This document shows, piece by piece, positions 9,455 to 44,535 of a stretch of DNA of 64,000 nt. A program made the translations under genes and the position numbers. How positions within the stretch are numbered: position 1 is the first letter of the stretch; each line of letters begins with the position of its first letter. The notes under the pieces are model-generated. The model did no database searches and was not told where the DNA came from. It worked only from the letters and a program-made list of their open reading frames with translations. This stretch comes from Cymodocea nodosa (Eukaryota; Streptophyta; Magnoliopsida; Alismatales; Cymodoceaceae): assembly GCA_036874045.1 (NCBI GenBank), contig CM072335.1:13350001-13414000 (forward strand), in the 5' to 3' direction.

Positions 9455-9574
9455 ATATCATTAAGCTTTTTCTGTATTAATTGATGATTTTAATTTCTTT
9501 TCACAAGCAATAGTAATTGAGCAAATATGATTATTTTCATTCAGCACACATCATCAAAACAAAAATACTCAACA
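9455..9574 (-). repeat. copia LTR tip, inverted (copy 1)
   Basis: About 120 bases equal to the reverse complement of the first bases of the SIRE-like LTR, ending in ...ATACTCAACA at 9574. It is followed by CTATC (9575-9579), the target duplication of the F-box insertion. Confidence 0.85.
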
Positions 9575-9579
9575 CTATC

Positions 9580-13068: not shown

Positions 13069-14587
13069 TGTAGAATCGTATGGCTACACAAGAAGGGGGT
13101 GAATTGTGTATTTTTAATATTTTCTGAAATATAATTGAAACTTTAAAACTCAAAAACAAATCGAGACATTGTTTTCATAAAATCATTTTTATTCAAGGTT
13201 TCAATTACAATATACAATTCAATTCTCCTCAGAAATTGTAGATGCAATTATATTTCGATACCATGTATCATCTAAACAATTTCATAACTACAAACAGAGA
13301 AAACTAATTTGCGGAATTTAAAACTTTTCTCCCTGTTTGAGATCTTTCTTCTTCTTCTTTTTCTTCTTCAGCAATTCTTCAATGACGAAAATCTTACCTT
13401 TTTATGCTTCATTGAACTTTCTTCCACTTGACAGATTTTTCCCGAAGAGGTGTTTTTGATCCCTAAAAAAGATTTTTCTTTTCGTGTACAGGGGATGGTT
13501 TGATCCTTGAAAAGATTTTTCTTTTTGGTGTGCAAGGATAAATTGATCAACGAGAATTCTATGCCTTTTATACTGTATCTTCATTTCATGCATATCCTTC
13601 ACGTTTAACCACTACCAGTTTTCCACTTCTCCACGTCTTTTCTTTTTCCTTCATTGAAACACACACGTTCTAACCTACATTTATATTTCGAATTTTCTTT
13701 AATCATCAGTCCTGGATTTCTGAAAAATTTCCTAAAAATAAACTTTCTCGTCCAAAATTTTTTCATTAGTGTAATAAGAAGTCGTTACTTTAATGTTAAC
13801 TAAATGAGTAACACAAGTATATATATATAACTTAACATTTCTAACTTAACGAGTTCACCATGTGCTATTTCACGTGACAAGTACTGTAGCTAACTCAACG
13901 AACTAAGTCCGTGGTGTTATGCTATCTCAACAAACCATCTCTGTTGTGTTACGATAACTCAACGAACCAGTAATAAACAAATGTTTTTAAAATAAGAATT
14001 TTACCACGTGCAAAAATAACAACTTAAGTTTATAACGCTAAGCTAACGCGTTGCCTTAGTGTTCAATATAGCAACTCAAGGCGTTTACTTATGTTAACTT
14101 AACGAGTTAAACATGTGCACCTCACGTGATACAATACAACATTCGTAACTTATAATTTCACCACGTGTATAACACTAACTTAACGAGTTTGTCTCTTCTT
14201 TTACTCACTAACTTAACGAGTTATCACGTAACCTATTTTAACCTTTAAGCCTTTAACTTAACGAGTTCTCACGTGACCTCTATACAAACAAAACTCTAAC
14301 TTAATGAGTTGTCTAAACGTGCACTGTTCATGACACAGAAGATATAACATTAAAACATATCATGCTTTTCAATAAAAACACACGTTAACTTAACGTTTAG
14401 CTAAATGAGAAATTAATGCAACGAAACGACTAGTTATTAACTTCAGATCCAATACAGACAAGTATTTATATCAGTAAGCTTTTTCTGTATTAATTGATGA
14501 TTTTAATTTCTTTTCACAAGCAATAGTAATTGAGGAAATATGATTATTTTCATTCAGCACACATCATCGAAACAAAAATACTCAACA
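13069..14587 (-). repeat. SIRE-like copia LTR, inserted in the F-box gene
   Basis: Starts TGTAGAATCG and ends ATACTCAACA on the plus strand, the reverse complement of the LTRs at 18663 and 30145. A TATA box (TATAAAAG in element sense) is at 13565-13572. G-box and AACTCGTTAAG-type units lie at about 13850-14330. Left target duplication CTATC is at 13064-13068. The polypurine tract that follows (14588-14605) marks it as the 3' LTR of an antisense element. The matching 5' LTR survives only as a tip at 33687-33807. Confidence 0.9.
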
Positions 14588-17996: not shown

Positions 17997-18662
17997 TTTG
18001 TGAATAATCTTTGATATAAAATCGATACCAACTTATTTAACATCATTGCTTATTCAACCTTCCTTGTTTTTAAATAGAAATTAATATCTGAGCATACGTT
18101 TAACTCTATTGATTTAAGGCTCAAGTTGTTTTAAAGTTTTTAGACTGTTTAAAATCAAATAGGTTGAAAAATCTAAGGTAAAATGGCTACTAGAAATGGT
18201 AATTTTTCTTTATATGAAGGCTAAAATCTTAACCGTCCTCCTTTATTTGATGGAATACATTTTGAATATTGGAAATATAGGATGACTGTTTTTCTTCAAA
18301 GTATAGATCATAAATTGTGGTTCATGATTTCTAAACCATATACTCCGTTCACTACTCCTTATAATACTTGGACAATTACTGAAAAAGAAAATGAAACTCT
18401 GAATGCTAAGGGCTTAAATATTTTATTTTGTGCATTGAGTTATAAATAGTTCAGTAAAGTGTCAGCATATAAATCTGCTTATGAGGTGTGGCATGCATTA
18501 GAAGTTTCACATGAAGGTACTTCTCAAGTTAAAGAGACAAAAATAAACATGTTGATTCATAAGTATGAACTCTTTAAGATGTATGAAGACAAAAATATTT
18601 CTAAGATGTTTTCCAGATTTCTTGATATCATAAACTCTTTAAAATGTTTAGGAAAGAATATT
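17997..18662 (+). pseudogene. copia leader and gag N-terminus (X2, part 1)
   Basis: A leader of about 185 bases, then ATG at 18183. The gag frame reads RPPLFDGIHFEYWKYRMTVF, KINMLIHKYELFK and FLDIINSLKCLGKNI, with two stops. It is cut inside GKNI by the 13 kb element (target ATATT 18658-18662, repeated at 31687-31691). It continues in the same frame at 31692 as EQKDLVRKIL. Confidence 0.9.
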
Positions 18663-18939
18663 TGTTGAGTATTTTTGTTTTGATGATGTGTGCTGAATGA
18701 AAATAATCATATTTCCTCAATTACTATTGCTTGTGAAAAGAAATTAAAATCATCAATTAATACAGAAAAAGCTTATTGATATAAATACTTGTCTGTATTG
18801 GATCTGAAGTTAATATCTAGTCGTTTCGTTGCATTAATTTCTCATTTAGCTAAACGTTAAGTTAACATGTGTTTTTATTGAAAAGCATGATATGTTTTAA
18901 TGTTATATCTTCTGTATCATGAATAGTGCACGTTTAGAC

Positions 18940-19460
18940 AATTCATTAAGTTAGAGTTTTGTTTGTATAGAGGTCACGTGAGAACTCATTAAGTTAGAGG
19001 CTTAAAGGTTAAAATAGGTCACGTGATAACTTGTTAAGTTAGTGAGTAAAAGAAGAGACGAACTCGTTAAGTTAGTGTTATACACGTTGTGAAATTATAA
19101 GTTACGAATGTTGTATTGTATCACGTGAGGTGCACATGTTTAACTTGTTAAGTTAACATAACTAAATGCGTTGATTTACTATATTGAACACTAAGGCAAC
19201 GCGTTAGGTTAGCGTTATAAACTTAAGTTGTTATTTTTACAGGTGGTAAAATTCTTATTATAAAAACATTTGTTTATTACTGGTTCGTTGAGTTATCATA
19301 ACACAACGGAAATGGTTCGTTGAGTTATCATAACACAACGGAGATGGTTCGTTGAGATAGCATAACACCATAGACTTAGTTCGTTGAGTTAGCTACAGTA
19401 CTTGTCACGTGAAATGGCACATGAGGAACTCGTTAAGTTAGAAACGTTAAGTTATATATA
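18940..19460 (+). promoter_or_regulatory. G-box and AACTCGTTAAGTTA array in U3
   Basis: CACGTG occurs at 18975-18980, 19020-19025, 19122-19127 and 19406-19411. Each is followed within about 6-25 bases by AACTCGTTAAGTTA or a close variant. Between them (19280-19400) lie three TTCGTTGAGTTA...TAACACAACGG units. G-boxes bind bZIP/bHLH factors in plants, so a regulated promoter is likely by inference. Confidence 0.6.
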
Positions 19461-19708
19461 TACTTGTGTTACTCGTTTACTTAACATTTAAGTAACGACT
19501 TCTTATTACACTAACGAAAAACTTTTGGACGAGAAAGTTTACTTTGCAGGAAATTTTTCAGAGATCCAAGACTGATAATTAAAGAAAATTCGAAATATAA
19601 ATGTGGGTTAGAACGTGTGTGTTTCGCTGAAGGAAAAAGAAAAGACATGGAGAAGTGGAAAACTAGTAGTGGTTAAACGTGAAAGATATGCATGAAATGA
19701 AGATACAG

Positions 19709-19716
19709 TATAAAAG
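19709..19716 (+). promoter_or_regulatory. TATA box of copia 5' LTR
   Basis: TATAAAAG, repeated at 31191-31198 in the 3' LTR and at 13565-13572 (inverted). In the solo LTR it is mutated to TATCAAAG near 46484. Confidence 0.65.
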
Positions 19717-20276
19717 GCATAGAATTCTCGTTGATCAATTTATCCTTGCACACAAAATGAAAAATCTTTTCAAGGATCAAACCATCCCTGCACACCAAAA
19801 GAAAATCTTTTTCAAGGATCAAAAACACATTCTCAGGGAAAATCTCTCAAGTGGAAGAAAGTTCAATGAAGCATAAAAAGGTAAGATTTTCGTCACTGAA
19901 GATTTGATGTATCAGAAGAAAGCAAATTCGGTGAAGCATGAAAAGACAAGATATTTGTCACTGAAGAATTGCTGAAGAAGAAAACGAAGAAGAAGAAAGA
20001 TCTCGAACAGGGAGAAAAGTTTTAAATTCCGTAAATTAGTTTTCTATGTTTGTAGTTATGAAATTGTTTAGATGATACATAGTATCGAAATATAATTGCA
20101 TCTACAATTTCTGAGGAGAATTGAATTATATATTGTAATTGAAACCTTGAATAAAAATGATTTTATGAAAACAATGTCTCGACTTGTTTTTGAGATTTAA
20201 AGTTTCAATTATATTTCAGAAAATATTAAAGATACACAATTCACCCCCCTCTTGTGTAGTCATACGATCCTTCAAG

Positions 20277-20288
20277 TGGTATCAGAGC
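20277..20288 (+). promoter_or_regulatory. primer-binding site, initiator tRNA-Met
   Basis: TGGTATCAGAGC, two bases after the LTR end: the standard Ty1/copia primer site in plants. Confidence 0.92.
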
Positions 20289-20474
20289 TTTGTTAATAAT
20301 CTTTGATATAAAATCGATACCAACTTATTTAATATCATTGTTTATTCTACCTTCCTTGTTTTTAAACAGAAATTAATATATGAGCATACGTTTAACTTTC
20401 TTGATTTAAGGCTCAAATTATTTTAAAGTTTTTAGACTGTTTAAAATCAAATAGGTTGAAAAATCTAAGGTAAC

Positions 20475-22733
20475 ATGGCTACTGGAAATGGTAATTTTTC
20501 TTTATATGAAGGCTAAAATCTTAAACGTCCTCCTTTATTTGATGGAATACATTTTGAATATTGGAAATATAGGATGACTGTTTTCCTTCAAAATATAGAT
20601 CATAAGTTGTGGTTCATGATTTCTAAACCATATACTCCGTTAAGTACCCCTTATAATAGTTGGACAATTACTGAAAAAGAAAATGAAACTTTGAATGCTA
20701 ATGGCTTAAATATTTTATTTTGTGCATTGAGTTATGAACAGTTCAGTAAAGTGTCGGCATATAAATTTGCTTATGAGGTGTGGCATGCATTAGAAGTTTC
20801 ACATGAAGGTACTTCTCAAGTTAAAGAGACAAAAATAAACATGTTGATTCATAAGTATGAACTCTTTAAGATGGATGAAGACGAAAATATTTCTGAGATG
20901 TTTTCTAGATTTCTTGATATCATAAACTCTTTAAAATGTTTAGGAAAGAATATTGAACAGAAGGATTTTGTGAGGAAAATTCTCAGATCCCTAAGTTCTA
21001 AATGGTCTCAAAAAGTAACATCAATTGAGGAATCACGAGATTTAAATGTTTATACTATGAATGAACTTATAGGAAATTTAATAGCTTATGAAGTTCAATT
21101 AAATGAATCACTGAGTCACAACAAACTAAAAATGAAGAAAGAAATAGCCTTCGAAATTAATTCAGATTCTGATATATCTATTGATTTTGACGAGGATTTG
21201 ATTTTGCTGACTAGGAAATTCAAGAAAGCATGGAAAACTAGGAAACAGCAAAGGAACAAAAATGATAAGCCCTCAACGTCAAAATCATTGAATGACAAGA
21301 ATTCTTCATCTAGAAAGTATATATGTTACAACTGTAAGAAACCTGGACATCTTTCTCTAGATTGTCCTATGAGGAAAAATGAAAAGCAAAGTAGGACAAA
21401 TCAGAAGAAGACGGCTCAGAAAACTTAGAAGAAGTTTTACAAGAAAAAGGCTTTGAAGGGCACTTGGGATGACACATCTGAAGAGTCTGAATCTGAGGAA
21501 TCAGCATCGAAATCTTCACATTCAGAAGGAGAACAAAAGTTAGAAGACGTTGCTCATGTGTGCTTCATGGCAGATGAGTCTGAGGTAATATCTGATCCTG
21601 AAAGTCATTCAGATTTCAACTTTGATGAATTATTATGTGCTTATCATGCATTATTACAAAAACTTAAAGTATGTAAATTGGAAACTAAGAATATTAGAAA
21701 ATCTTCATCCATTATGGAAGAAGAAAATTGTTTCATGTCTACTACTTTAGAAAAGTTTAAATGTGATAATGAAAATCATGCTAGAGATTTGCAAAAATTT
21801 AGATTTAATGAATGTATCTTGCATGAACAAATATAGAATATAAATGCTGAAAAATTAAAGATAGAATCTGAAAATGAAATGTTGAGAAACAATATAAATG
21901 AACTTGAATTAGAGATAAAAAAATTAAAACTGAGAGAGCAAGATTTAAATTCTACCTTTTAGAAATGGAATTTAAGTCAAACTAAGTTAGACAAACTAAC
22001 TAGTACCCCTACGGTGTTTTATAAATTTGGCTTAAGATTTGATTATCCTGAATATCCTGAATCTCAAGCCAATAAAGGATTTATTAGTTGCAGTTCAAGT
22101 AAATCTAAGACTAAAATTCCTTTTATTATGAGACAAGGTAATAAATATGTAAAAGTAGGCACTTAAAGGGATGAATCATGTAGTAATAATATAAATCAAT
22201 GTGATTTGTCAAATTGTACTTCTAACATGACTATAAATGTTTCTAAAAATCCTATTTCTTGTTCTCGAAATTCAGTTTCTAATGTTTCTAAAATTTCAGA
22301 CAATTGTAGTAAACTGAAAATTCAGAAACCTGAGCATGTAATTCAATACACTAGTATTAGACCAATTACTCATTCTGCATGTGATAAAACAAAAAATTCT
22401 TGTGCAGAAAAATATTTTGTATGTATGGAAAGTGTTAATACAAGTACAAAATCTTGGTATGAACTTACAGAAATGTATAAGCATGACCAAAATAAATTAA
22501 CATCTGATAAAAATATGTTTGGTCTTGATTATACTACATCTGAAAACAAAAAGAATGATTACAAAAACAATAATGCTATATGTGAGTATGAAGCTAATGA
22601 TAAATCAATAGTACTTACAACTAATAAGAATATAAATGATAATGTTAAACTATTTTTAAACAAAAAGAAGAAATATGCGTTTAATGAACTTGGTCCTCAA
22701 CAACATTGGGTACCAAGAAAAAGTTTTTCTTAA
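20475..22733 (+). pseudogene. gag of the 13 kb copia element
   Basis: A single 753-codon frame from ATGGCTACTGG with five in-frame stops (20514, 21426, 21834, 21960, 22164) and no frameshift. The capsid-like N-terminus (RPPLFDGIHFEYWKYRMTVF, KINMLIHKYELFKMDEDE) is a UBN2-type copia gag. The zinc knuckle CYNCKKPGHLSLDC (21330-21370) binds RNA. An acidic Ser/Glu tract, long coiled-coil-like helices (FKCDNENHARDLQKFRFNE, ENEMLRNNINELELEI) and an Asn/Ser-rich tail ending WVPRKSFS follow. The length well beyond 400 residues is typical of SIRE gags. Confidence 0.9.
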
Positions 22734-25700
22734 TTTGTGTTGTAGTGGAGCGTCAAGTCACATGATCGGACAAAAAAGTCTATTACAAAATTTTACAAAT
22801 ACCATGAAAGGAAGTGTAACATTTGGAAACAAAAGCAAAGATAAAATTATAGGTATGGGCAATGTTCAAATAACTCGTACTTGTGTTATTTCGAATGTAC
22901 TATATGTAGAAAACCTAGGATTTAATTTGCTGAGTGTCATAAAACTAACTGAAAATAGATATTATGTAGTGTTTGAAGATAATGTATGTAAAATAATTGA
23001 TAAAAATACAGATGAAATTAAGTTTATTGCTAAAAGAAAAGGTTCTATATGTATTTTATCTTTACCTTCTGGTGCAGTTGATTTAAATTCATGTTTGCTA
23101 GCTGAAACTAGTGATGCATATCTATGGCATAGAAGGATTGGGCATATAAATATGAGACTGTTACATAAACTATCTAGAAAACATTTAGTGAGAGGTTTAC
23201 CAAAGATTAAATACTCAAAGAACTTTATGTATGATGCATGTGAGTTAGGTAAACTTCACAAAAACTCTTTTAAATCCAAAACTGATATTTCAAGCAAAAG
23301 AGTCTTAGAACTTATACATATGGATCTATTTGGACCAACAAGAATCATGAGTCTTGGTGGTAAACGGTATGTATTTGTTTTAGTAGATGACTTCTCTAGA
23401 TACACTTGGGTTTATTTTCTAGCATCTAAGACAGAAGTTTTTGAAAAATTTAAAATGTTTTGCAATTTTGTTCAAAATGAGCAAAGTGTCTCTATTCAAA
23501 AACTAAGGAGTGATCATGGAACTGAATTTAATAATGATCAAATGGATAACTATTGTAATGAGCATGACATTGATCACAAATTTTTCTTTTCCAAGAGCAC
23601 CGTGTCAAAATGGTGTTGTTGAGAGAAAGAATAGATCCCTTCAAGAAATGGCCAGAACTATGTTGAATGAACATAAGTTACCTCAAAATCTTTGGGCTGA
23701 AGCAGTAAATACAGTTTGTTATGTTATTAATAGAAGTCATTTAAGACCTCATGTTAATAAAACTCATTTTGAAATTATGTTTAATAGGGTTCCAAAAATT
23801 TCCTATATGAAACCATTTGGCTGCAAGTGTTTTATTCTTAATACTAAGGATAAAAGGGATAAATTTCAAGCCAAATCAGATGAAGGAATTTTTGTAGGTT
23901 ACTCTACTAGAAGTATAGCCTATAGAGTATATAACAAGACTTCTAGGACTATTGAAGAAACCCTCCATGTAAGCTTCAATGAAAATTCTCTTAGAGAATC
24001 TCAATCAAAAGCTGATAATGATGATATGATCAATTTTCCAAATGAGTTAGAGATCAATAGAGAGATTGATGATTTATCTGAGAAAATCAAAAATATGAAC
24101 TTAAATGATCAAACTAATGATGAAAGTGATGGACTTTCAAATGTTGATGAGAATATTGAGGAAAATCAGAGAAATTGGCGTTATTCTTCATCACATCCCA
24201 TTACTCAAGTCATTGGTAATATTAATGAGGGAGCTAAAACTAGAGCTTCAATAAATTTAAATAGTATGTGTATGTTTGTTTCTATGGTGGAACCAAAGAA
24301 TATACAAGAAGCATTATCTGATGAAAATTGGATAGTGGCAATGCAAGAAGAACTAAATCAATTCATCAGAAATGATGTATGAGAATTAGTTTCTCCACTA
24401 GAAAATCAGTCCATAATAGGTACAAAGTGGATCTTTAGAAACAAAACTAACGAAACTGGTCAAATTATAAGGAATAAAGCTAGATTAGTTGCACAAGGGT
24501 ATACACAGGAAGAAGGATTAGATTATGATGAAACATTTGCTCTTGTGGCTAGGTTAGAAAGTATTAGAATATTATTGGCCTATGCTTGTTATATGGATTT
24601 TAAATTATATCAAATGGATGTAAAGAGTGCATTTCTATGAAGAAGTCTATGTAAAACAACCACCTGGATTCCTGACTTTGTGTATAAATTGAAGAAAGCC
24701 TTATATGGATTGAAGCAAGCACCTAGATCATGGTATGAAAGATTGTCTACTTTTTTAATAGAAAAAGGCTATATCATGGGAAAAGTGGATCATACTCTAT
24801 TTATTAAGAGAGATGGTAAAGATCAGATTATTGTTCAAATATACGTGGATGATATAATCTTTGGAGCAACCTCTGATAAGTTGATAGAAATATTCTCTGA
24901 AGAGATGACTAATCAGTTTGAAATGAGTATGATAGGAGAACCTTCATATTTTCTAGGACTTCAAATTAAGCAAATGGATAAAGGTATATTTTTAAATTAG
25001 GAAAAATTTGTAGATAAAATGCTTAAGAAATTTAATTTTAATGATACAAGGATTCAAGGAACTCCTATGAGTACTACTTTAAAGTTAGATATTGATGACA
25101 TAGGAAAATCTATAGATCAAAGAAAATACAGAAGTATGATTGGTTCTTTACTTTATTTGACTGCTAGTAGACCTGATATTATGTTTGCTGTGTGTGTTTG
25201 TGCTAGATTTCAATCTAATCCTAAGGAATCACACTTAATTGTAGTTAAAAGAATATTTAGATATATACAAGGAACTAAAAATTTCAAACTATATTATTCT
25301 AAGGATAGTTCAATAGATCTTATAGGATATACTAATGCTGATTATGCAGGATCTAAATCTGATAGAAAGAGTACTAGTGGCACATGTCAATTATTGGGAA
25401 ATAATTTGGTGTCATGGTTTAGTAAAAAACAAAACTGTGTAGCACTTTCTACTACAGAAGCTGAATATGTTGCTCCTGCACTGTGTTGCACTCAGATTCT
25501 GTGGATAAGGCAAACTTTAGAAGATTTTGGATTATCTTATGATACAACTGAGATTTATTGTGACAGTAGTTCTGCAATAAATCTTTCTAAAAATCCTGTA
25601 TTACATTCAAGAGCAAAACATATAGAGGTTAGACATCATTTTCTAAGAGATAACGTAATTAAAGGAAAAATTAAATTAGAATTTGTGTCTAGTAAAAATC

Positions 25701-25792
25701 AATTAGCTGATATATTTACAAAACCTCTAGACGAAAATACATTCTGCAACATTAGATTAAATTTAGGTATTTGTAGGCTATGTGATGTGTAA
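22734..25792 (+). pseudogene. pol of the 13 kb copia element
   Basis: The protease starts at SGASSHMIGQKS. About 31 bases present in X1 are missing, which removes the catalytic LDSG Asp and shifts frame against gag. Integrase has the zinc ligands WHRRIGHINMRLLHKL and CELGKLH (first Cys changed to Ala in YDACELG spacing), MDLFGPT, RSDHGTEF and, after a one-base shift at about 23585, PCQNGVVERKN. RT has [20 protein letters not shown], a small deletion near 24636, then YGLKQAPRSWYE and IYVDDIIFG intact. RNase H reads SKSDRKSTSG and STTEAEYVAPA. Stop is at 25790-25792. Confidence 0.9.
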
Positions 25793-27383
25793 AATGCTTA
25801 AACTCCACATAAAAAGATAAATATTATTGATGATGTTGTTCACCTCATAGATATTATATACTTATTATAAATATCTAAAGTAATATCTAAACTGTTGCTT
25901 AAGATACTATGTATTTATTGTAAAATCATAGTAGTATCTTATTGATTTTAAGTAGTTTATCAATTTTAATAGTTTTTACGATTTTAAGTGGAAGTGTAAA
26001 TGAAAAACAATAAATACTTCTGACATTCTGAAATTTTGATTAAATGTTTTCTTTGAATCAAGGAAAATGCATATGATCATGCATAAATTTGACTTAATTG
26101 ATTAAACTTGTAGAATAAGTTATATGTAACTCATCTTAAACTGTTAATCAAAAGTATAAGCTTATTGAAACTGATTCATATTCTCAGTACAATCATAGAA
26201 GTAAAAATTGTATGAGATTTGTGTTTTATTGCATCTGTATTAAATGGAATACATATATACTGTGCTTAAAATGAAAAGTGCTTACAATGTAAAAATCTTT
26301 GAGAGTTTATTGATTAGTTTGATCACAAGCCTTTTGTACTTGAGCAGATACGTATGTAAGGATTGTTGTCCTAAAAAAGGATTCTTTAAATCTGGCAACC
26401 TAAGCTCCTGATCAGATTTGGGATTGTTGACTGAAAGCTCATTACACGGGTACATTAGAAAGCTCTTGTATGATTCAAGCTTTTCAAACTAACTTTTAAA
26501 GAAAATTATCAATAGTTACTGTTTTGAAAAGAAAAAGTTGTTTCATTAATTACAGATATCTTTGAATCGCATATAGTTTATACCAATATGACTACTGATT
26601 TATTGAATCAACATTAGTACTTTTGAAAATATTTATTTGAGATACATTCTTTTATTCTCCTTGAATTAATCGAATTGAGTTCAAAGTTGTGTTTTAATTC
26701 CTATACAGTAGGAATTGATTCTGGAAATTATTTTTTGATGATGTTAGGATAACGGAAGTCTCTTAAAAGAAAATGTAAAAGTATAGTTATACTTAACATC
26801 TATTGTCACTATAAGTATATTTTGTATTTTGATTGAATATATTTGAAGTATATTTGTAAGGGGAGCATTAACAATGTCAAAAACAGATTAATATAATTTA
26901 AAATTCAAATTTTAGTTAATCTGAATTAATATCCTCTTTAAATCTTGATGAAATAATTTAAAAAGACAAATAAACTATGTTAGATTCAAAGGACAAAATG
27001 TTCAAATAGTTTACTATGTTCTCAAGATAATGTTAAGGTTTAGCATGTGTATTGTCTTCGGAACGTTTAAGTTGGAAGCATCTGAAAATTGTTTTAAGTG
27101 TACTAACTAGACATTATGTTAGATAAGGTAACGTGTAAAACTGCCTCTAGACAGTGTTTTACTCGTTAGGTTAGTTAACTCAATGAGTTATACTTGAATA
27201 TTTCGGGTACTTTGATTGAATAGGCTTTATTCAATATTTATTTTATTTCTAAACCCGACTTCTCTTCACGTTGAGTTATACGCCTAAAAACCCTATTTAA
27301 ACACTTATTACACGGGGACTTAGGTTATTTGTAAACCTTGTCAAGAAAATTTTTCCCGCTTGTTACTGTTACAACCTGCGACG
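25793..27383 (+). other. long spacer between pol and accessory ORF
   Basis: 1.59 kb without a credible ORF, conserved in X1 (16196-17750). Its last 220 bases contain GTTAACTCAATGAGTTATAC, ACGTTGAGTTATACG, a telo-box AAAAACCCTA and a TATA-like CTATTTAAAC (about 27290-27301) some 85 bases before the accessory ATG. That could be a private promoter. Confidence 0.6.
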
Positions 27384-29648
27384 ATGGTCTCCAAGTTCTA
27401 CAAAGGTCGTGGCAGAGGAAAAGGCAAAAGCAGAAGAGATGCAAAAGGAAAAGAAATAGAGAATGATGAAGTTCCACGTACTTGGTTCAAGAAAATATTT
27501 TGAGTGGACAAAATGTTAGAAGAACTTTATAGAGATTACTTCTTTTCTCAAGATATATTAGATGAAGTTAGACAATAACTTCAACATACTGATGCAAGTA
27601 TTACATACATGGGTATTCAAAGTAAATATGATAGAGAATATAGAATGAAATGTGATGAGATTGCATTTTTGGAACAGTATGCAAAATATTTGGAGAAAGG
27701 TGTAGGTTCATCAAATAGAACACCTCAAACTCCTATAAACAGTACAAGACTACATGCATTACAGGAAGAGCATGAATCAGCTATCCCTACTCCTTTATAT
27801 TCAAAACAAGTAGAATCAGATATTGCTGTAGACAAAACAAAAGTTGACAGTCTTCGAAAGGCCATTGTAATAGAAAGTGTCTTAGAAGAATTAATGCAGA
27901 AAACTTTTATGGAGCAATTTGAAAAGAAAACAGCAATACTTGAAAAGGAGAAACAAAAATGTTATAGAAGAAGGAAAGTTAGAAAAATTATGTCTAAAGA
28001 AACAAAGTCTATTGAAAAAGGAAAATCAGATGAAAATTTATTTCCAAAGGACAATGTATGTCTAGACATTGTACCTTATTGTGCATCTGATAAACTCATT
28101 AGTTCCGAACACACTGAAACTGATGAAGATAATGAGACTTTATTTTCCCTTGATAGAAAACTTGAGAAGAAATCCAAGTCAAATATGAGCTCAAGTTTTT
28201 CTATTAGTACAAGTCCTGATGATGCAGAAATTGACAAATCAGAGCATCAGACACCTGACATTGAACAAGTTATTGCAGATATAATTGACAATGTTGAGGC
28301 AGTAACTAGTTCAAGGGCTGAATTGTCTGGAGTAGCAGATATTGAAAATGTTAAGACTCTAGAAGAGCTAAAAGTTAACCAGCCTTCTACAGAATCTATA
28401 GAAGCAGAGTCTAAGAATTCACAGCATGAATCAATAGAAATATCTGTTGAATAAAATGAACAATTACAGACAGATACACTAGTTGTAGAATTTGTGGAAA
28501 AATTGTACTCTGAACATTCTATAGAGACTGAACAGATGAATGCTGAGTATATTGACAATGTTCCTAACACTATTGAAGCTGAAGAATCAAGCTTACTTGA
28601 GCAGCTTCAAGATAATATTTTGGAAGAGGAACAACTTGACATTCATTTTGAAGAAGAGGTTCCTGAAGATGAATTAAACTCTGAATCACGGCTTCAGGTA
28701 TCACCTTCTTTGTGTATAATATTAAAAATTCAAGGTAATGCAATTCATTTTAGATCTGAAGAAGCATTGCAGAAATACAATAATCTGATTACATGTCAGA
28801 TTCTGCATGCTCGTTCAATAAAATTTAGAAATTTGATGGAAATAAGAGATCTGTTTGAGTTTCAAGGCCTCATTAAATTCTTGCCAGTAGGAACGAAATG
28901 GAAGCAATACACAAAGCTTATTACAGCTTTTTATAGCAATCTAGTCAAGAATGGAAATTTTTTGAAAACTCAAATAAATGAATAAGAGTTTATATTGTCT
29001 CCTGAGTTAATTTTTGAAGTTTTAGGATTAAAGAATGAAGGAGTTGTTGTTACCAACAGATTTGACATAATAAGACAATTGGAATGGAACACTCAGTCTT
29101 TATCAAAAATTCCAGATGTATATTCTGAAATGAGATTAATGGAAAATCTGAATGCAGAGGCAAGGTTTATTGCAAATATATTGCATGCAAATTTATTTCA
29201 GAGAGTTGGACACAATATGGAAGTCAGCAGAAGTTGTTTATATGCAACTTATAACTTGCTGAATAGAATTCAAATCAATTGGTTTGATGTTTTCACTTCT
29301 CAACTATAGCATATGAGTTCAAAGTTATTTTATGGTGATGCTGTATGTAGACTCATTGCAAGCCAATTGAATTTATCCGACTAGCCCTCTAAAACTAAAG
29401 GCATGAGAGCATTTAGTGTCAAAGATTTGCAAAAATTCTAGGCTATGCATAAACCTCAACGACAACAACAACAACCTGATACAGACCATATACAACAACA
29501 ACAACAAAGTTACTCAGTTCAAGTAGAACAGCAAACTCAGCTACCTCCTCACTTAGATGCAGTGCTTAACGACATCAGAAATGATATTAGGCATCTAGGA
29601 GATAAAATATGTAATGCTATAAGTGATATACTTAGGAGGGGTCGATAA
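27384..29648 (+). pseudogene. accessory (env-position) ORF of the copia element
   Basis: 755 codons in one frame with seven in-frame stops (27501, 27576, 28452, 28983, 29307, 29382, 29439) and no frameshift. The start MVSKFYKGRGRGKGKSRR is basic, like a nuclear signal. The middle is acidic and coiled-coil-like. Residues about 440-660 form a globular region (EIRDLFEFQGLIKFLPVGTK, FYSNLVKNG, LLNRIQINWFDVFTSQL, LFYGDAVCRLI). A Gln-rich stretch (PQRQQQQPD, IQQQQQSY) and the tail ISDILRRGR follow. I see no signal peptide or membrane segment, so an envelope role is not supported. The globular region matches the gypsy accessory ORF at 6889-8037. Confidence 0.8.
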
Positions 29649-30144
29649 CTGTTTTTGTTTATTTCTGAATACAAAATGTAATGTTTGTATTACTTGTTTG
29701 ATTCATTGAACAATACATTTTTCTATAAATGTGTTCAATTATTATTCTTGTTTATAGAAATCGTTGTTGTAATTCTCTTATATACATATATATATTCTCT
29801 GTAATTATCTTTTTGATTAATGACAAAAAGGGGGAGAAATATTATAAAAAGATGATTATGATCTTAATTGCATATATATATTATAAAAGGAGATGCTATT
29901 TAAATGGTTATTGTAATCTGATAGATGATAAATAGAAAACTGATACTTATATAATTATTGACATTTGAGAGTTTTAGTTCTGAGAGGTAAAATTTACACA
30001 AACAATAGAAATAAGCTTAAATGAACTTAAGTCAACAAACAAGTTTGTTGAATTAAAAGTTAACCCAACGAATGTGCTTTGTTGAGTTAAACATATTTCA
30101 TAATTGATTTAATATGGTTTTGTCATCATCAAAAAGGGGGAGAT
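29649..30144 (+). other. 3' UTR with two polypurine runs
   Basis: AT-rich. AAAAAGGGGGAG occurs at about 29826-29838 (context ATTAATGACAAAAAGG) and again at 30132-30143 (context GTCATCATCAAAAAGG), the second directly abutting the LTR and so the functional tract. CAACAAACAAGTTTGTTG and CCAACG...TTGTTGAG palindromes lie at 30033-30088. Confidence 0.8.
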
Positions 30145-31686
30145 TGTTGAGTATTTTTGTTTTGATGATGTGTGCTGAATGAAAATAATCATATTTCCTC
30201 AATTACTATTGTTTGTGAAAAGAAATTAAAATCATCAATTAATACAGAAAAAGCTTACTGATATAAATACTTGTTTGTATTGGATCTGAAGTTAATATAT
30301 AGTCGTTTCGTTGCATTAATTTCTCATTTAGCTAAACGTTAAGTTAACGTGTGTTTTTATTGAAAAGCATGATATGTTTTAATGTTATATCTTCTGTATC
30401 ATGAACAGTGCACGTTTAGACAACTCGTTAAGTTAGAGTTTTGTTTGTATAGAGGTCACGTGAGAACTCGTTAAGTTAGAGGCTTAAATGTTAAAATAGG
30501 TCACGTGATAACTCGTTAAGTTAGTGAGTAAAAGAAGAGACGAACTCGTTAAGTTAGTGTTATACACATGGTGAAATTATATGTTACGAATGTTGTATTG
30601 TATCACGTGAGGTGCACATGTTTAACTCGTTAAGTTAACATAACTAAACGCGTTGAGTTGCTATATTGAAAACTAAGGCAACGCGTTAGGTTAGCGTTAT
30701 AAACTTAAGTTGTTATTTTTGCACGTGGTAAAATTCTTATTTTAAAAACATTTGTTTATTACTGGTTCGTTGAGTTATCATAACACAACGGAAATGGTTC
30801 GTTGAGTTATCATAACACAACGGAGATGGTTCGTTGAGATAGCATAACACCACAGACTTAGTTCGTTGAGTTAGCTACAGTACTTGTCACGTGAAATGGC
30901 ACATGAGGAACTCGTTAAGTTAGAAACGTTAAGTTATATATATACTTGTGTTACTCGTTTAGTTAACATTAAAGTAACGACTTCTTATTACACTGTTGTA
31001 AAACTTTTGGACGAGAAAGTTTCTTTTGCAGGAAATTTTTCAGAGATCCAAGACTGATGATTAAAGAAAATTTGAAATATAAATGTGGGTTAAAACCTGT
31101 GTTTTTCGATGAAGGAAAAAAAAAAGACGTGGAGAAGTGGAAAACTAGTAGTGGTTAAACGTGAAGGATATGCATGAAATGAAGATACAGTATAAAAGGC
31201 ATAGAATTCTCGTTGATCAATTTATCCTTGCACACAAAACGAAAAATCTTTTCAAGGATCAAACCATCCCTGCACACCAAAAGAAAAATCTTTTTCAGGG
31301 ATCAAAAACACCTTCTCGGGGAAAATCTCTCAAGTGGAAGAAAGTTCAGTGAAGTATAAAAAGGTAAGATTTTCGTCACTGAATAATTGCTGAAGAAGAA
31401 AAAGAAGAAAAATCTCAAATAGGGAGAAAAGTTTTAAATTCCGCAAATTAGTTTTCTCTATTTGTAGTTATGAAATTGTTTAGATGATATATGGTATCGA
31501 AATATAATTGCACCTACAATTTCTGAGGAAAATTGAATTGTATATTGTAATTGAAACCTTGAATAAAAATGATTTTATGAAAACAATGTCTGGACTTGTT
31601 TTTGAGATTTAAAGTTTCAATTATATTTCAGAAAATATTAAAGATACACAATTCACCTTCCTCTTGTGTAGCCATACGATCCTACA
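30145..31686 (+). repeat. 3' LTR of the 13 kb copia element
   Basis: 1542 bp. TATA box at 31191-31198. Two hairpin repeats just downstream (31225-31312): ATCCTTG...CAAGGAT and ATCCCTG...CAGGGAT. It ends TACGATCCTACA at 31686, followed by target duplication ATATT (31687-31691). Confidence 0.92.
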
Positions 31687-31691
31687 ATATT

Positions 31692-33320
31692 GAACAGAAG
31701 GATTTGGTGAGGAAAATTCTCAGATCCCTAAGTTCTAAATGGTCTCAAAAAATAACATTAATTGAGGAATCACGAGATTTAAATGTTTATACTATGAATG
31801 AACTTATAGGAAATTTAATAGCTTATGAAGTTCAATTAAATGAATCACTGAGTCACAACAAATTAAAACTGAAGAAAGAAATAGCTTTCGAAATTAATTC
31901 AGATTCTGATATATCTACTGATTCTGACGAGGATTTGATTTTGCTGACTATGAAATTCAAGAAAGCATGGAAAGCTAGGAAACAGCAAAGAAACAAAAAT
32001 GATAAATTCTCAATGTCAAAATCATTGAATGACAAGAATTCTTCATCTAGAAAGTATGTATGTTACAATTGTAGAAACCTAGACATCTTTCTCCAGATTG
32101 TCCTATGAAGAAAAATGAAAAGCAAAGTAGGACAAACCAGAAGAAGACGGCTTAGAAAACTCATAAAAAGTTTTACAAGAAAAAGACTTTGAAGGTCACT
32201 TGGGATGACACGTCTGAAGAGTCTGAATCTGAGGAATTTCCATCAAAATCTTCACATTCAGAAGGAGAACAAGAGTTAGAAGACGTTGCTCATGTGTGCT
32301 TCATGGCAGATGAGTCTGAGGTAATATCTGATCTTGAAAGTCATTCAGATTTCAACTTTGATGAATTATTATGTGCTTATCATGCATTATTACAAAAACT
32401 TAAAGTATGTAAACTGGAAAATAAGAATATTAGAAAATCTTCATCCATTATGGAAGAAGAAAATTGTTTCTTCTCTACTACTTTAGAAAAGTTTAAATGT
32501 GATAATGAAAATCATGCTAGAGATTTGCAAAAATTTAGATTTAATGAATGTATCTTGCATGAACAAATACAGAATATAAATGCTGAAAAATTAAAGATAG
32601 AATCTGAAAATGAAATGTTGAGAAACAATATAAATGAACTTGAATTAGAGATAGAAAAATTAAAACTGAGAGAGCAAGATTTAAATTCTACCTTTGAGAA
32701 ATGGAATTTAAGTCAAACTAAGTTAGACAAACTAACTAGTACCCCTGCGGTGTCTTATAAATTTGGCTTAGGATTTGATTATCCTGAATATCCTGAATCT
32801 CAAGCCAATAAAGGATTTATTAGTTGCAGTTCAAGTAAATCTAAGACTAAAATTCCTTTCATTATGAAACAAGGTAATAAATATGTAGAAGTAGGTACTT
32901 CAAGGGATGAATCATGCAGTACTAATATAAATCAATGTGATTTGTCAAATTGTACTTCTAACATGACTATAAATGTTTCTAAAAATCTTATTTCTTGTTC
33001 TGGAAATTCAATTTCTAAAATTTCAAACAATTGTAGTAAACTGAAAATTCAGAAACCTAAGTATGTAATTCAATACACTAGTATTAGACCAATTACTCAT
33101 TCTACATGTGATAAAACTAAAAATTCTTGTGCAGAAAAAGTTTTTGTATGTACAGAAAATGTTAATACAAGTACAAAATTTGGTATGAACTTACTGAAAT
33201 GTATAAGCATGACCAAAATAAATTAACATCTGATAAAAATATGTTTGGTCTTGATTATAGTATATCTGAAAACAAAAAGAATGATTGCAAAAGCAATAAT
33301 GCTATAAGTGATATACTTAG
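31692..33320 (+). pseudogene. copia gag (X2, part 2) fused to accessory-ORF end
   Basis: Continues the gag cut at 18657. EQKDLVRKILRSLSSKW begins in frame. The zinc knuckle (CYNCRN at about 32065) is destroyed by a one-base deletion. The tail runs open from 32189 to 33178, then another one-base deletion shifts the frame at NTSTK. At about 33303 the sequence jumps to the accessory-ORF end (SDILRRGR), so pol is missing. Less decayed than the copy at 8038-9100. Confidence 0.85.
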
Positions 33321-33686
33321 GAGGGGTCGATAACTGTTTTTGTTTGTTTCTGAATACAAAATGTAATGTTTGTATTACTTGTTTGATTTGATTGAACAAT
33401 ACATTTTTCTGTAAATGTCTTCAATTATTATTCTTGTTTACAGAAAGAGTTGTTGTAATTATATCTCTTATATATATATATATATATTCTCTATAATTAT
33501 CTTTTTGATTAATGACAAAAAGGGGGAGAAATATTATAAAAAGATGATTATGATCTTAATTGCATATATATATTATAAAAGGAGATGCTATTTAAATGGT
33601 TATTGTAATCTGACAGATAATAATTAGAACACTGATACTTATATAATTATTGACATCTGAGAGTTTTAGTTCTGAGAGGTAAAATT
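33321..33686 (+). other. copia 3' UTR of X2
   Basis: Same sequence as 29649-29999, including the upstream polypurine run AAAAAGGGGGAG at about 33517-33528. It ends at GAGGTAAAATTT, where the inverted LTR tip starts. No ORF of note. Confidence 0.75.
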
Positions 33687-33812
33687 TATATCAGTAAGCT
33701 TTTTCTGTATTAATTGATGATTTTAATTTCTTTTCACAAGCAATAGTAATTGAGCAAATATGATTATTTTCATTCAGCACACATCATCAAAACAAAAATA
33801 CTCAACACTATC
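33687..33812 (-). repeat. copia LTR tip and right target duplication in the F-box gene
   Basis: About 120 bases of the LTR start in antisense, ending ATACTCAACA at 33807. CTATC (33808-33812) duplicates 13064-13068. This is the right edge of the insertion that split the F-box gene. The rest of this LTR was lost at ATTTATATCAG, which the LTR and the 3' UTR share as microhomology. Confidence 0.9.
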
Positions 33813-34592
33813 ACTAGAGAAGAATGGAATATAAGAAGGCCTAATAAATTTGAAGTACCAATTGAAAATTGTGGGTTAGCTTTAACATTTTCTGATAAAA
33901 ATTTGACCATTCCTGAAAAATTGTATTACTAGAGACCAAATGGAAATTGGGATGAGGATTTATGCTTAAGTGTGTATAATTTTCTAAATAGATCCTGAAC
34001 TGAAAATACTATGATATATCTAGGACAGAAAGCATTAATTAACAACATACATGTTATATTTAATGGATATATATATTTAGTCATAGATATATCAGTTTCA
34101 TTTAGATCTGATTTATACATAGTAAGCATAGATAGTTATGATGATGACTTTATAGAAATATTGCCTATATCGAGTGATATATCTAAACCACCGTTTGCAG
34201 AATATGATAAAATTCAATTAGGAATGTGGTATAATGAATATGATGATCCTACTTTATGTTTGATAAGATGGTGGGATGAACTTATGAAATTTCAAATATG
34301 GATTATGAAAGACCTAAATGAATGGAAGTGGGAAGAGGAATATATTGAAATGTTTGTTGAAATAGAAACAACTACATTATCTTGGAACAGAAAAGGATCC
34401 ATTTCTACATTTCAATTCATTAATGGAAATACACTTATATTTAGTATTGATAACATATTGCAAGTTTACAAGTTAAAAAGGAAAGCAAACTGCATTAAAA
34501 TAGAATTAATATTAAGAAGAATTATGCCTAAAAAGTTTACTTGGACTAACACATTTATTCCAATTGTTACTACTTTTCAATCATGTTCTTAA
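33813..34592 (+). pseudogene. F-box protein gene, C-terminal part (original locus)
   Basis: Continues codon 120 of 12709-13068 without loss of frame. TREEWNIRRPNKFEV completes the NP-TRE block. The F-box-associated region follows: NGYIYLVIDISVSFRSDLYI, SIDSYDDDFIEILPIS, LIRWWDELMKFQIWIMKDLN, EWKWEEEYIE, INGNTLIFSIDN. This substrate-binding part has the usual kelch-like strand pattern. Stops at about 33930 (YY-stop-RPNG) and 33990 (NRS-stop-TEN) are shared with the duplicate at 9580-10359, so they predate it. Terminal stop is at 34590-34592. Confidence 0.85.
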
Positions 34593-35105
34593 AGTGTGAT
34601 TCTATGCTTTTAATGTTGTATGTACTCTGCATTTATTTTTAGAAAAGGAAGAAAACTTTTTAGTTTTGTTTTATTTTATAAAAAGAAAAGAAAAAATATA
34701 TATATAAATCCAGTTTGTTGGTATCTATTTTGGGAAACCAATTGGCTTGCTTATGAGCCACCAAAGGCATAGGAGCTTGGGTTCCACACAAGACACTAAT
34801 TTAACAATTTATGTTTTGTTATTTTGTTATATATTCTGCTTTTATTTGTGAATGAAAAGTTTTTCAGAATCAAAAGTAGGAAGATATTGAAGGAGATACA
34901 AAAGAACAAGTTATGTAATTGATTACTTATCCTGAATTTACATTTAAACTCAGTTCGTGGAGTTATTCATTCACTCAACGAATTAAGTTCGTTAAGTTAG
35001 GTGCTAAGTCAACGAAACAATATTCATGCCTGCTAACAATTACTGTATTTACTATAAAATCTTTTACATTGAGGACAATGCAAAATGTAGGTATGGGAGG
35101 GAGGT
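34593..35105 (+). other. F-box 3' flank and gypsy 3' UTR with polypurine tract
   Basis: No gene. CATTGAGGACAATG at 35067-35080 followed by GTATGGGAGGGAGG (35091-35104) is an Athila-type end just before an LTR. A palindrome CACTCAACGAA...TTCGTTAAGTT lies at about 34973-35000. The rest is AT-rich, with nothing I recognise. Confidence 0.65.
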
Positions 35106-37150
35106 AATTAGATTAAAAGCCAAGTAATTTTGTTAATTAGAGGAATTAGAATGGTGTTGCAAAGTTCTGTGAAATTGAAAATTTTTTATGAATTTGCTAT
35201 AACTAACTGAAATTTCCTATAACTATCCGATAATTGAGACTATCAAATTTTTAAGAACTGTAAATGCATGAATGTTATATTTAGAATCTTATATAAGATG
35301 CTACAAAATTTTAATATTAATACAAATCTGGATATAGTATCCTATGTTTTTATTGAATTTTATGAGTATCCAAATTTTCTATTATTTCGGAGAGTTATAT
35401 TACATGTATCGGACAATTATGTTTTAAACACTTAAAGAATATTTTATTATTTCCTAGAGTACACGTGTTGTAATCTTAATGCATGACTTAAGTGGATTTT
35501 CGGTAAGTTATCTGGTAACTATCCAAAATGTGTCTAAGCATCAGATAGTTAGATTTGCAAGTATCTGAAATATCTCTTTATCATAAAACTGCCTGAGGAC
35601 ACGTGTTGCGTTTTGGAAACTTGACTTAAGTTATCTTTTGGAAGGTTAGGTGCTAACTATCCGAAATGCATATAAGTTTCGGATACTTATAATTATAAAT
35701 ATCTAAAACATCTGAACTAGTTATTTCTTTATTGCACGTATTTTATAGTTAAATCAACGAAGTAAGTCCGTTGAGTTATTTGTAACTCCACAGACCATTT
35801 ATTTTCTAATATGCCACTATAGCAGTTGCAAAAACAAGAAATTCGAAGGAAAACCACAATTGCACATATCACACAGGAATTCACTCATGGAATAAAGAAG
35901 AAATCACCATTGTTGATATGAATGAAGGAAATCCAACTAATCATCTAAACAAGTAGTTACTACAGAAAGAAATATAAAAGAAGAGGAGAAAGACGAAGAA
36001 AGGTGTGTGTGTAGAGGTGAACCGCGCTAACTACAGGAAGCGTTAGAAGTTCCTTGAAGCTCCACACCACCACCAAAATCACCAACCATCAGAGGTCTGT
36101 GAGAATACTTTCCTAATGTTAGGTCAATTTTGAGCCAAACACGGTGATTGATAACTACTGTGAGGAGTAATCGCGTTGCAGGAAGGGAAGCCATTTTCAC
36201 TAAGCACCGACTCATATCTCAAGAGATCGTACAACTTCTAGCCTTGGTTTCGGGTTGATGCCAGTATGCTGAAGAGGAGATCATCTTATAATTCTTGATT
36301 CATGATTCTATAGGGAGAGGAGGAAAGATTGTAAGTGATTAATTTTTCAGTGGTGTAATCACGCTGTATGTAGTGACGAAAGTTTTTATTATCGATAGAG
36401 ATTTTTACATTTCACCTTTCATTCATTTTCAAGAACATATCAAAACAAAAATATCAAAAACAACAAATTATCTATGTTTACATTTAGTATTAAAGTGTTG
36501 TATTATTTGTTTTGTATCATGATTAATGGTATCATTGTTAGTATTGTGAATGTTTTATGCTTGTTTGATTCAGAAAATAGAAAATAGTTTTATTGTTTAC
36601 TGACATAGATTCGTTCTAGATACTTAAAGATTTTAATGGTTACTATTTGAAATATTTGAATGTTAGTGTTGCTTAATGATAAATCTAATATTAACTAACA
36701 TTAAAGAGCTTAATTGATGTTATTAACATTCTATGGAACCGCCTAATGGTTGGCAAAATTCCTTTGTAAATAGCAGTATTTAACTAGAAAGGTAGGCTTG
36801 TGGAGTTAACTTAAGTCCACAAGGTTAGTCTGTTGAGTTAACCATAACTCCACAAACTAGGTTTGTTGTGTTAATTGTAACTCAACGGAGTGCTTAACTG
36901 AACACATATAAACTCCAATATAAAAATCAAAACAATACACAATTCTTACTCAATCTCTATGGGATCGACTTGTACTTGCACACAAATACAATATACACTG
37001 TGCACTTGCAGTTAAAAATACAAATTAGATTTAATATCTAATTTGTGTGAAAGGTTGTTTGTTTACTTCTAAAAGTAATTATTTATATAAGCATAAAAAC
37101 AAATTAAACAAGTTTTTTGGCACTACTATATAAACAAGTTTATGATTTAA
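35106..37150 (+). repeat. gypsy LTR of element C (sense)
   Basis: Preceded by a polypurine tract yet followed by the interior of a sense-strand element, so it serves two neighbours, a sign of tandem elements sharing an LTR. TATA box TATAAAAG at 35973-35980. It matches LTRs A and E inverted, from about 35365 on. The first 250 bases diverge. Palindromes at 35748-35800 and 36800-36890. The 3' edge is blurred: no recognisable primer site follows. Confidence 0.75.
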
Positions 37151-38172: not shown

Positions 38173-38675
38173 TGTTGAGTATTTTGTTTTGATGATGTGT
38201 GCTAAATGAAAGTAATCATATTTGCTCAATTACTATTGCTTGTGAAAGGAAATTAAGTACATCAATTAATACAGAAAAAGTTTATTGATATAAATAATTG
38301 TCTGTATTGGATCTGAAATTATACTAAGTTAAATAACTAGTCGTTTCATTGCATTAATTTCTTATTTAACTAAATGTTAAGATAACGTGTGTTTTTATTG
38401 AAAAGCATGATATGTTTTAAAGTTATATCTTCTGTATCGTGAACATTGCACGTTTAGACAACTCGTTAAGTTAGAGTGTTATTTGTATAGAGGTCACGTG
38501 AGAACTCGTTAAGTTAGTGAGTAAAAGAAGAGACGAACTCGTTAAGTTGGTGTTGTACACGTGCTGAAATTAAAGGTTACAAATGTTATATTGTATCATA
38601 TAAGGTGCACATATTTAACTTGTTAAGTTAACATAACTAAACGTGTTGAGTTACTATATTAAATACTAAGGCAAC

Positions 38676-39497
38676 TGTTAGGATCGATAGGCTCACTAGA
38701 GGGGGGGTGAATGGTGAAGGTGTGTAAGTTTACTTCTTTTTAATTAAGAATCAGTTGATTCTATCAAACAGTGTATTGAACTAAATTAAATGGATGCACA
38801 ACAATAAGAAGAAAATAACACAGTAATTTTTAGGTGATTCACCAACTCGGCTAGTCCACCCCCAAGATACACTTGAGCTTCACTAAGTAGACAAGTACTT
38901 ACAACACTTGCTTTCAGGTTGAAGCAAGAACTAACACTTAGAGCTTTTAGGTATAAGCTCAATAACCAACCTTTCTTCAAGCTTTCAAGTTGAAGCTCTC
39001 AACCAACAATGAGTTTTCAAGTTGAAACTCACAAACCAACAGCTTGAACTTTTTATTAGAGTATATGAGTTTCTGCACGTGGGTAATTGAATGACTTAAG
39101 TTTTAGATAGTTAGCTTTTCTAACTTGCCAAAAAGTCCTTTAGCTTTCGGATAGTTAACTCCTTAACTCTCCAATCATTCAATCTTTCTTAATTGTCCGA
39201 TCATTTAACTCTCTGAAGGCTTTGTAAATTCGGATAGTTATTCTTTTAACTATCCGATGGTATTTCTACTGCTTTACTCTTCAGATACTTAAGCCTGTAA
39301 CTTACCAAAAATTAACTTTCTTCTGAATACTTGGCTTGGTAATTATCTGATTTTCTTGTAGCTTTATAGCGGTAAATTCTAAACTACCTAAATCTGTTTA
39401 TCTACCTTCTGATCTTTAGCTGCACTATCTTCATTGTGAAATACAATATGTTTCCTCACATAGGTTTTTGCATTATCAAAATACTAGGGTCCTAACA
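38676..39497 (-). repeat. 3' LTR of element N (internally deleted)
   Basis: 822 bp against 1439 bp for the other LTR. About 620 bases are missing after TTTTTATTAGAGT (near 39065), rejoining at GTAATTGAATGACTTAAG. This takes out most of the region around the core promoter. Hairpin repeats at 38907-39030 are kept. Confidence 0.9.
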
Positions 39498-39911
39498 ATC
39501 TCCCTCTTTTTGATAATGACAAAACCCTTTACTTTTATTTACATGTATTTCACTCCCTAGATTGTTTCTATACATTCAGTCACACAGAAACTAAGTAAAG
39601 TAAAGATTCACAATGAATATAAAGAAGGGAAGTTAATTCCTCCCCTTGACTGTGTGCTGTCTTCTCCCCCTGTTTGTGTGCTGAGATTTCACTCCCCCTT
39701 TTAATACTTCTCTTTTTGTCTATGCTGGAAATACTGGAATTTTCCATATTCTTCTCCAATTGCCATATTCTTCTCCCCATTTTTGTCATTATATAAAAAA
39801 GGTGACTAATATCTGTAAAACTGTAAAATTGATATCTAATATATCCTGCACAAGTACATGTTAGCAGAAAGCAAGCTCCCATATGGTGAGCTTGAGGAAT
39901 AATAAAAGCAT
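39498..39911 (-). other. polypurine tract and 3' UTR of element N
   Basis: In element sense AAAAAGAGGGAGATT abuts the LTR (39512-39498). A second purine run in ATGACAAAAATGGGGAGAAG lies at about 39793-39774, with further short G-rich runs between (39655-39700). No ORF beyond chance. Confidence 0.75.
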
Positions 39912-42900: not shown

Positions 42901-42979
42901 GCTTTGAGCATCCACTATCCACAATCCATTTTGTTGTACGTGCTTGGAGCTCCTTGTCATCTTGCAAATTATACTGAAA
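39912..42979 (-). pseudogene. pol of copia element N
   Basis: Protease: WIVDSGCSKHMIG (42930-42890). Integrase: WLWHKRLGHVSMKTFRKLSK and CSDCMLGKQKR (HHCC zinc site), LELLHLDLFGPS, KIKSDYGGEFEN, AQNGVVERKNRTLQEMARTM, so all catalytic residues are present. One stop lies at GG-stop-KY (about 42300). [52 protein letters not shown] (about 40845-40870), with three or four stops. RNase H: SRSDRKSTSGTCQLLG and STTEAEYIVAS; the later catalytic Asp reads FCNNSSAISL instead of the usual C-D. Ends KPLNESIFNYIRRNLGICS with stop at 39912-39914. Confidence 0.9.
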
Positions 42980-44484: not shown

Positions 44485-44521
44485 AAATCCAGATGGTTAA
44501 ATCTTATAACGGATTAACCAA

Positions 44522-44533
44522 GCTTTGATACCA
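44522..44533 (-). promoter_or_regulatory. primer-binding site of element N
   Basis: In element sense TGGTATCAAAGC, the initiator tRNA-Met site with one mismatch, two bases inside the LTR. Confidence 0.88.
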
Positions 44534-44535
44534 AT

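Follow-up and report, generated by a model that had tools for sequence, protein, structure and literature searches.

Background

The env-like ORFs of plant retroelements have been viewed as heterogeneous and perhaps independently acquired, and doubt has been cast on their having a function (PMC6317226, PMC1142308, PMC3414828). In SIRE elements these ORFs form 19 groups with little mutual likeness and their function was questioned (PMC6317226), the env-like proteins of the Athila lineage are described as mostly dissimilar to each other (PMC1142308), and the origin of such ORFs was called unknown for Sireviruses and gypsy elements alike (PMC3414828). Described Sirevirus cases are the ENV-like ORFs of SIRE1, ToRTL1 and MtRetro3 (PMC2829016, PMC3414828, PMC4093653), the 774-aa ORF of the Medicago copia element MtRetro3 being related to SIRE1 and ToRTL1 (PMC4093653). 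On the gypsy side, a 3' accessory ORF with a match to the Pfam family Transposase_32 has already been published for sunflower Athila (PMC11728184). Extra ORFs common to diverse types of retroelements have a precedent in bdelloid rotifers, where the elements are animal ones and the likeness is one of description (PMC5408684).

Compared by description, the copia ORF analysed here resembles the Sirevirus ENV-like ORFs in lineage marks and post-pol place (PMC2829016, PMC3414828, PMC4093653), and its longest open frame, of 776 codons, is similar in size to the MtRetro3 ORF (PMC4093653). The SIRE1, ToRTL1 and MtRetro3 proteins are, however, described with transmembrane and coiled-coil regions, neither of which was seen here. 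The gypsy-type ORF resembles that of sunflower, again by description, in belonging to a gypsy element, in lying in sense orientation 3' of pol and in matching Transposase_32; the accessible text of the sunflower report mentions no copia counterpart, unlike the case here (PMC11728184).

The copia element and its accessory ORF

The window, that is the whole stretch of 64,000 nucleotides analysed (G000:C1:13350001-13414000), has a G+C content of 30.8% and belongs to a Cymodocea nodosa genome that was searched over 374.6 Mb in 28 contigs. The ORF at 27384-29648 sits within a full-length Sirevirus-type Ty1/copia element, 18663-31686, with the following features:

18663-20274 (+), copia 5' LTR; matches 30144-31403 (95.7% over 1260 bases) and 31338-31687 (91.0% over 356); TG...CA ends; ATATT duplication
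20277-20288 (+), primer binding site TGGTATCAGAGC, read from the sequence
20517-21425 (+), gag piece; PF14223 at 3.9e-29, zinc knuckle
22660-24379 (+), protease-side and integrase pieces in two overlapping open frames; Pol_BBD, gag_pre-integrs and rve in 22660-23619, the rest by eye
24383-25789 (+), RT and RNase H pieces, 3' of integrase as in Ty1/copia; by eye, open frames
27384-29648 (+), window copy of the accessory ORF in the ENV position; a single frame interrupted by seven stops
28689-29438 (+), shared domain in the copia ORF; BLASTP, Smith-Waterman shuffles and profile-profile comparison
29829-29836 (+), upstream polypurine octamer AGGGGGAG, read from the sequence
30135-30142 (+), terminal copy of the polypurine octamer AGGGGGAG; the 3' LTR begins 10 bases after its start
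30145-31686 (+), copia 3' LTR; LTR match, CA end and target duplication

The two LTRs, with TG...CA ends, are 95.7% alike over 1260 bases and 91.0% alike over another 356, and the target duplication ATATT lies at 18658-18662 and 31687-31691. The element is itself located within the gag of a sister copy from the same family. We take the primer binding site TGGTATCAGAGC to be a match to initiator tRNA-Met. The frame 25001-25789 gave no Pfam match at E 0.1.

Among the marks of Sireviruses are the octamer AGGGGGAG, placed 10 bp ahead of the 3' LTR, and an inverted repeat at the junction (PMC2829016). Both marks are present here: the octamer starts at 30135 and the LTR at 30145, and the polypurine tract/LTR junction is spanned by an inverted repeat (CATCATCAAAA at 30124, TTTTGATGATG at 30160). 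Two octamers were found between pol and the 3' LTR, both 3' of the ORF; the number of identical octamers tabulated per Sirevirus element is 3-5 (PMC2829016). Judged by its marks, the ORF-bearing copia element is Sirevirus-type.

The domain-bearing stretch of the copia ORF recurs at 97-98% identity in at least 39 further places (40 of 3317 candidates scored). Among 30 copia loci cut out of the genome, the window being one, four have open frames of 597-776 codons. One copy (L023) is open throughout, and the other 29 carry 1-10 stops on its frame. Counted from the first ATG, the open protein has 756 residues: a basic N-terminus (K+R 24% in residues 21-90) and an acidic middle (E+D 24% in 251-455) are followed by the domain and then by a Gln-rich end (24%). 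A candidate for a second ORF-bearing copia lineage, L063, was rejected, since it belongs to the same copia family and is a truncated piece adjoining another element.

Several other copia sequences of the window were recorded. The stretches 8038-12013 and 32272-36249, which are 96.6% identical, belong to deletion derivatives of the copia family in which gag is fused to the final codons of the accessory ORF; both break points have TAATGCTATA in common, and the derivative seems to have multiplied. Near these derivatives, 9796-10356 and 33999-34589 are copies of one ORF of 187-197 aa, the latter without a Pfam match at E 0.1, and the ORF at 12709-13131 presumably resembles an F-box protein, as judged by eye. 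In a further copia element, 38672-45974 (-), with paired repeats 93-94% alike, the domain was not seen in the interval from pol to the 3' LTR.

A homologous domain in the copia and gypsy ORFs

The preliminary description of this DNA had proposed, from three sequence blocks in each ORF, that a copia and a gypsy element have a domain in common in their post-pol ORFs. All six blocks were found at the places given, EIRDLFEFQGLIKFL at 28839, LLNRIQINWFDVFTSQL at 29256 and LFYGDAVCRLI at 29325 in copia, and EIKELFEFQDLLQFI at 7214, VVNRIQFNWYKVFISKL at 7623 and LFYGDLIPLLM at 7692 in gypsy. Piecewise BLASTP between the two gave E-values of 5e-13, 3e-12 and 4e-4. Against 300 shuffles, Smith-Waterman scores of these pieces reached z values of 15.4, 18.3 and 4.9, and two more collinear pieces reached 9.2 and 7.1. 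The profile-profile comparison that had been set as the test of the proposal was significant: with hhalign, 6 copia against 14 gypsy-type natural frames, all taken from this genome, gave a probability of 99.9 and an E-value of 1.6e-32 over 236 columns, the alignments being shallow. BLASTP, shuffle z values and profile-profile comparison thus agree, and the post-pol ORFs of Sirevirus-type copia and Athila-type gypsy elements have one homologous domain of about 236 residues.

The likeness claimed outside this domain held less well. A shared N-terminus with an MGIQ block was not borne out: N-terminal z values were 1.8 for the window copy and 0.3-1.4 for three others, that is 0.3-1.8 in 4 Athila-type copies, and MGIQ occurred in 0 of 8 further copies, so that MGIQ was rejected as a shared homology. 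The Glu/Gln-rich middle attributed to both ORFs is alike in composition, and in no more than composition.

Searches for more distant relatives were negative within their scope. Protein searches, one using the window piece (28 candidates) and another using the part of the open copy from residue 455 to 720 (990 candidates), gave no match at E <= 0.01, a sequence search of solved structures none at E <= 1, and a comparison of viral contigs with the domain piece, the gypsy integrase and the copia RNase H piece no confirmed relative. AlphaFold2 models built from alignments of 22 and 14 rows had mean pLDDT of 45.1 and 39.3 and pTM of 0.33 and 0.23, values too poor for the folds to be compared.

Gypsy-type elements and their accessory ORF

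The gypsy-type features of the window, which we take to be of Athila type (a label used here as a name only), are:

6889-8037 (+), fragment of a gypsy-type accessory ORF that includes the domain, open in 7016-7264 and 7572-7781; BLASTP, shuffles, frames
48965-50740 (+), gypsy-type accessory ORF 3' of integrase (47225-47776), domain pieces in 50300-50740; 79.6% over 3429 to the minus-strand copy
51859-53354 (-), second copy of the accessory ORF, ending before most of the domain; frames, homology
53972-57519 (-), pol of the second gypsy-type copy; rve at 3.6e-14 in 53972-55003, the rest by homology to 1-3410

The region 1-3410 itself has an RVT_1 match at 3.7e-22. Both ORFs had been placed 3' of pol. 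This position is right for copia, for 47007-50740 (+), for 53354-51859 (-) and for other genomic copies, but not for 6889-8037, which has copia sequence on either side and no gypsy pol of its own adjoining. In the gypsy-type element on the minus strand, the 3' LTR (50737-51890) apparently lacks about its first 800 bases and adjoins the truncated accessory ORF; it looks as though a single deletion had removed both the domain and the start of the LTR.

Searching the genome with the Transposase_32 profile (PF20167), with each of the 31 candidates scored, yielded 21 matches at E <= 0.01; 14 control genomes yielded none. By sequence, 17 of the 21 are of the gypsy type of the window, 2 are copia (L041, L043), and one each is of the types named here after L031 and L048. 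For 12 of them (L048, L041 and the first ten places) we read 10-kb contexts. In 7 of the 9 gypsy-type contexts (L053, L055-L059, L061) integrase precedes the two N-terminal ORF parts and the domain, all on one strand; this arrangement is absent from L054 and L060. In L057 and L059 the order is PR-RT-RH-IN, the Ty3/gypsy order, with integrase 3' of RT and RNase H.

Relation to Pfam Transposase_32

PF20167, annotated as a putative plant transposon protein, is the top family of copia, gypsy, L048-type and L031-type frames, most of the profile being covered. It is the top match of all seven domain frames scanned, at E-values of 7.2e-6 (L043) and 2.7e-6 (L041) for copia, 1.3e-5 (L046), 8.3e-5 (L051) and 3.8e-4 (L037) for the gypsy type, 2.8e-5 for L048 and 1.5e-11 for L031. 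It is also matched by 16 of the 22 alignment members and by three of the four long copia frames, L013 being the one without a match. Relative to the curated cut-off of 45 bits, the copia frames (17.8-27.8 bits), the gypsy-type frames (20.8-25.6) and L048 (24.5) fall short and L031 alone reaches it; in the six-frame search 1 of the 21 matches lies above it. On these profile matches, the shared domain is a distant relative of Transposase_32. Matches to ten further Pfam families, each from no more than two alignment members (best 0.0013), were taken as chance. PF20167 has been called related to PF03078, the Athila ORF-1 family (PMC11728184), yet none of the frames scanned here matches PF03078.

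The L048 type (in L062 at 1150-2817, -) combines the same domain with a proline-rich tail. It is a high-copy repeat family, with at least 147 scored matches at 71% identity or more (from 10,262 candidates), and is therefore not a single-copy host gene. At the L048 locus a gypsy-type element masks the upstream side. Upstream of the L031-type domain lie a gypsy-like RT and RNase H in degenerate form. The strongest match to Transposase_32 in this genome, L052 2461-6207 (-), follows degenerate pieces of this kind and directly precedes an RVT_3 frame. No host gene with the domain was identified in this genome.

Selection on the domain

Neutral decay after insertion drives dN/dS towards 1. Stop codons being skipped, the open copia frame compared with the diverged subfamily L054 gave a dN/dS of 0.36 over 233 domain codons, 0.45 in the N-terminal part and 0.65 at the C-terminal end; compared with L063 it gave 0.17 over 206 domain codons. 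In the domain of one gypsy-type frame compared with 12 others, the ratio was 0.15-0.40. Among the 30 copia copies, variants of the domain shared between copies were 28 nonsynonymous to 26 synonymous and singletons 93 to 34, and the corresponding counts for the N-terminal part were 105 to 31 and 218 to 54 (counted at codons present in at least 15 copies, with insertions relative to L023 removed). With ratios of 0.15-0.40 in the domain, purifying selection has therefore acted on it in both the copia and the gypsy lineages. These patterns indicate that both lineages used the ORF as a working protein, of which the domain is a well-kept part.

Relationships among the four domain types

To a tree of the domain within this one genome, 29 of 64 tblastn matches contributed, 13 repeats of the same place being dropped and 22 further copia copies left out. 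The tree comprises four types and unites the copia and gypsy rows against L031 and L048 with support of 99/94, the latter two being long single rows. We retain this grouping as weak because neither the pairwise identities nor the AU tests give it firm backing.

These data bear on the main alternative to a direct link, namely that copia and gypsy each took the domain independently from a third source, which might be a host gene or a different repeat family (the L048 type, for example), with no direct exchange between them. The genome does hold two further families with the domain, the L031 and L048 types. The gypsy domain is closer to L048 (38% identity) than to copia (32-36%), which counts against a direct copia-gypsy link, and a grouping of Athila with L031 was not rejected (p 0.234). 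The tree, on the other hand, separates copia and gypsy from both candidate sources, and a grouping of Athila with L048 was rejected (p 0.032), each of these results resting on the same two long single rows. We regard two separate captures as a serious contender, to which we would give about a third of our belief.

Possible function of the accessory protein

The usual Kyte-Doolittle threshold for a membrane helix is 1.6. Over 19-residue stretches, no value above 1.4 was found in seven frames (four of the domain, two of the N-terminus and the open copia ORF, the C-terminal ends of gypsy being only partly covered), and the maximum was 1.39. The earlier remark that the ORF is without membrane features thus stands for these frames. 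The older name of such ORFs implies a genuine envelope-like membrane protein, which would fit the position 3' of pol and the term envelope-like used in PMC2829016, PMC3414828 and PMC7264820; against the hydropathy values of the seven frames, partial at the gypsy C-termini as they are, we consider it very unlikely.

In its place we tentatively propose a soluble, probably nuclear accessory protein that would be translated from a subgenomic RNA and would aid a nuclear step, a proposal about which we remain more doubtful than confident. A subgenomic RNA encoding the protein is likely because the copia ORF starts 1594 bases past the end of the RNase H frame. The domain may bind a host or element partner, with the acidic linker joining it to the basic N-terminus, and the step aided might be the entry of pre-integration complexes, the choice of a target or protection against silencing. 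The sunflower Athila ORF with a Transposase_32 match was predicted to be nuclear (PMC11728184).

Probable horizontal sharing of the domain

We compared gag and pol of the window copia and gypsy elements in seven pairings covering gag, protease, integrase, RT and RNase H. One integrase piece is clearly above shuffles (22% identity, z 6.2), and the other six gave z values of -0.8 to 2.0, some of the copia pol pieces being short, which leaves the contrast with pol imperfect. In the same test, domain pieces gave z values of 17.4 and 17.8. Between the window and the 9 gypsy-type contexts, identity is 57-89% in the domain and 69-89% in integrase; the domain being no more conserved than integrase within the gypsy type, general slowness fails to explain its likeness between the superfamilies. 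Vertical descent, with the accessory domain present in the copia/gypsy ancestor and retained in these two lineages, agrees with a domain ORF lying 3' of pol in both elements and is nevertheless most improbable, because the domain is far more alike between the elements than gag or pol and yet is not slow within the gypsy type.

Horizontal sharing after the copia/gypsy split therefore appears likelier than common descent on the sequence comparisons. The preliminary description had offered exchange between superfamilies or capture of one host gene twice; the horizontal component of this view is favoured, and the L048 type, as a possible source, does not fit the single-copy host gene. Taken as a whole, we hold it probable that the two kinds of element have one homologous post-pol domain under purifying selection which reached at least one of the lineages horizontally. 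The route would have been recombination between retroelements or capture from a common mobile source, and the flanking ORF parts would since have been replaced or have diverged past recognition.

Significance

A sharing of the ORF domain between Sireviruses and Athila was not found stated in the literature searched, a body of papers in which subscription journals were mostly out of scope. The link between the Sirevirus ORF and the Athila-type ORF is a new relation between known kinds of genes, of which the gypsy half has already been published. If true, a gene has been shared between superfamilies that can barely be aligned in gag-pol. Purifying selection on a core domain in both of them speaks for a real function of the env slot, and the shared domain provides a definite unit to trace, fold and test, by which the question of the env slot becomes testable. 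More speculatively, and on balance less likely than not, the env slot of plant LTR retrotransposons might be largely filled by one mobile non-envelope domain cassette, in copia, gypsy and other elements, with the same host-facing nuclear function; the apparent unrelatedness of env-like ORFs would then come from their fast-changing ends.
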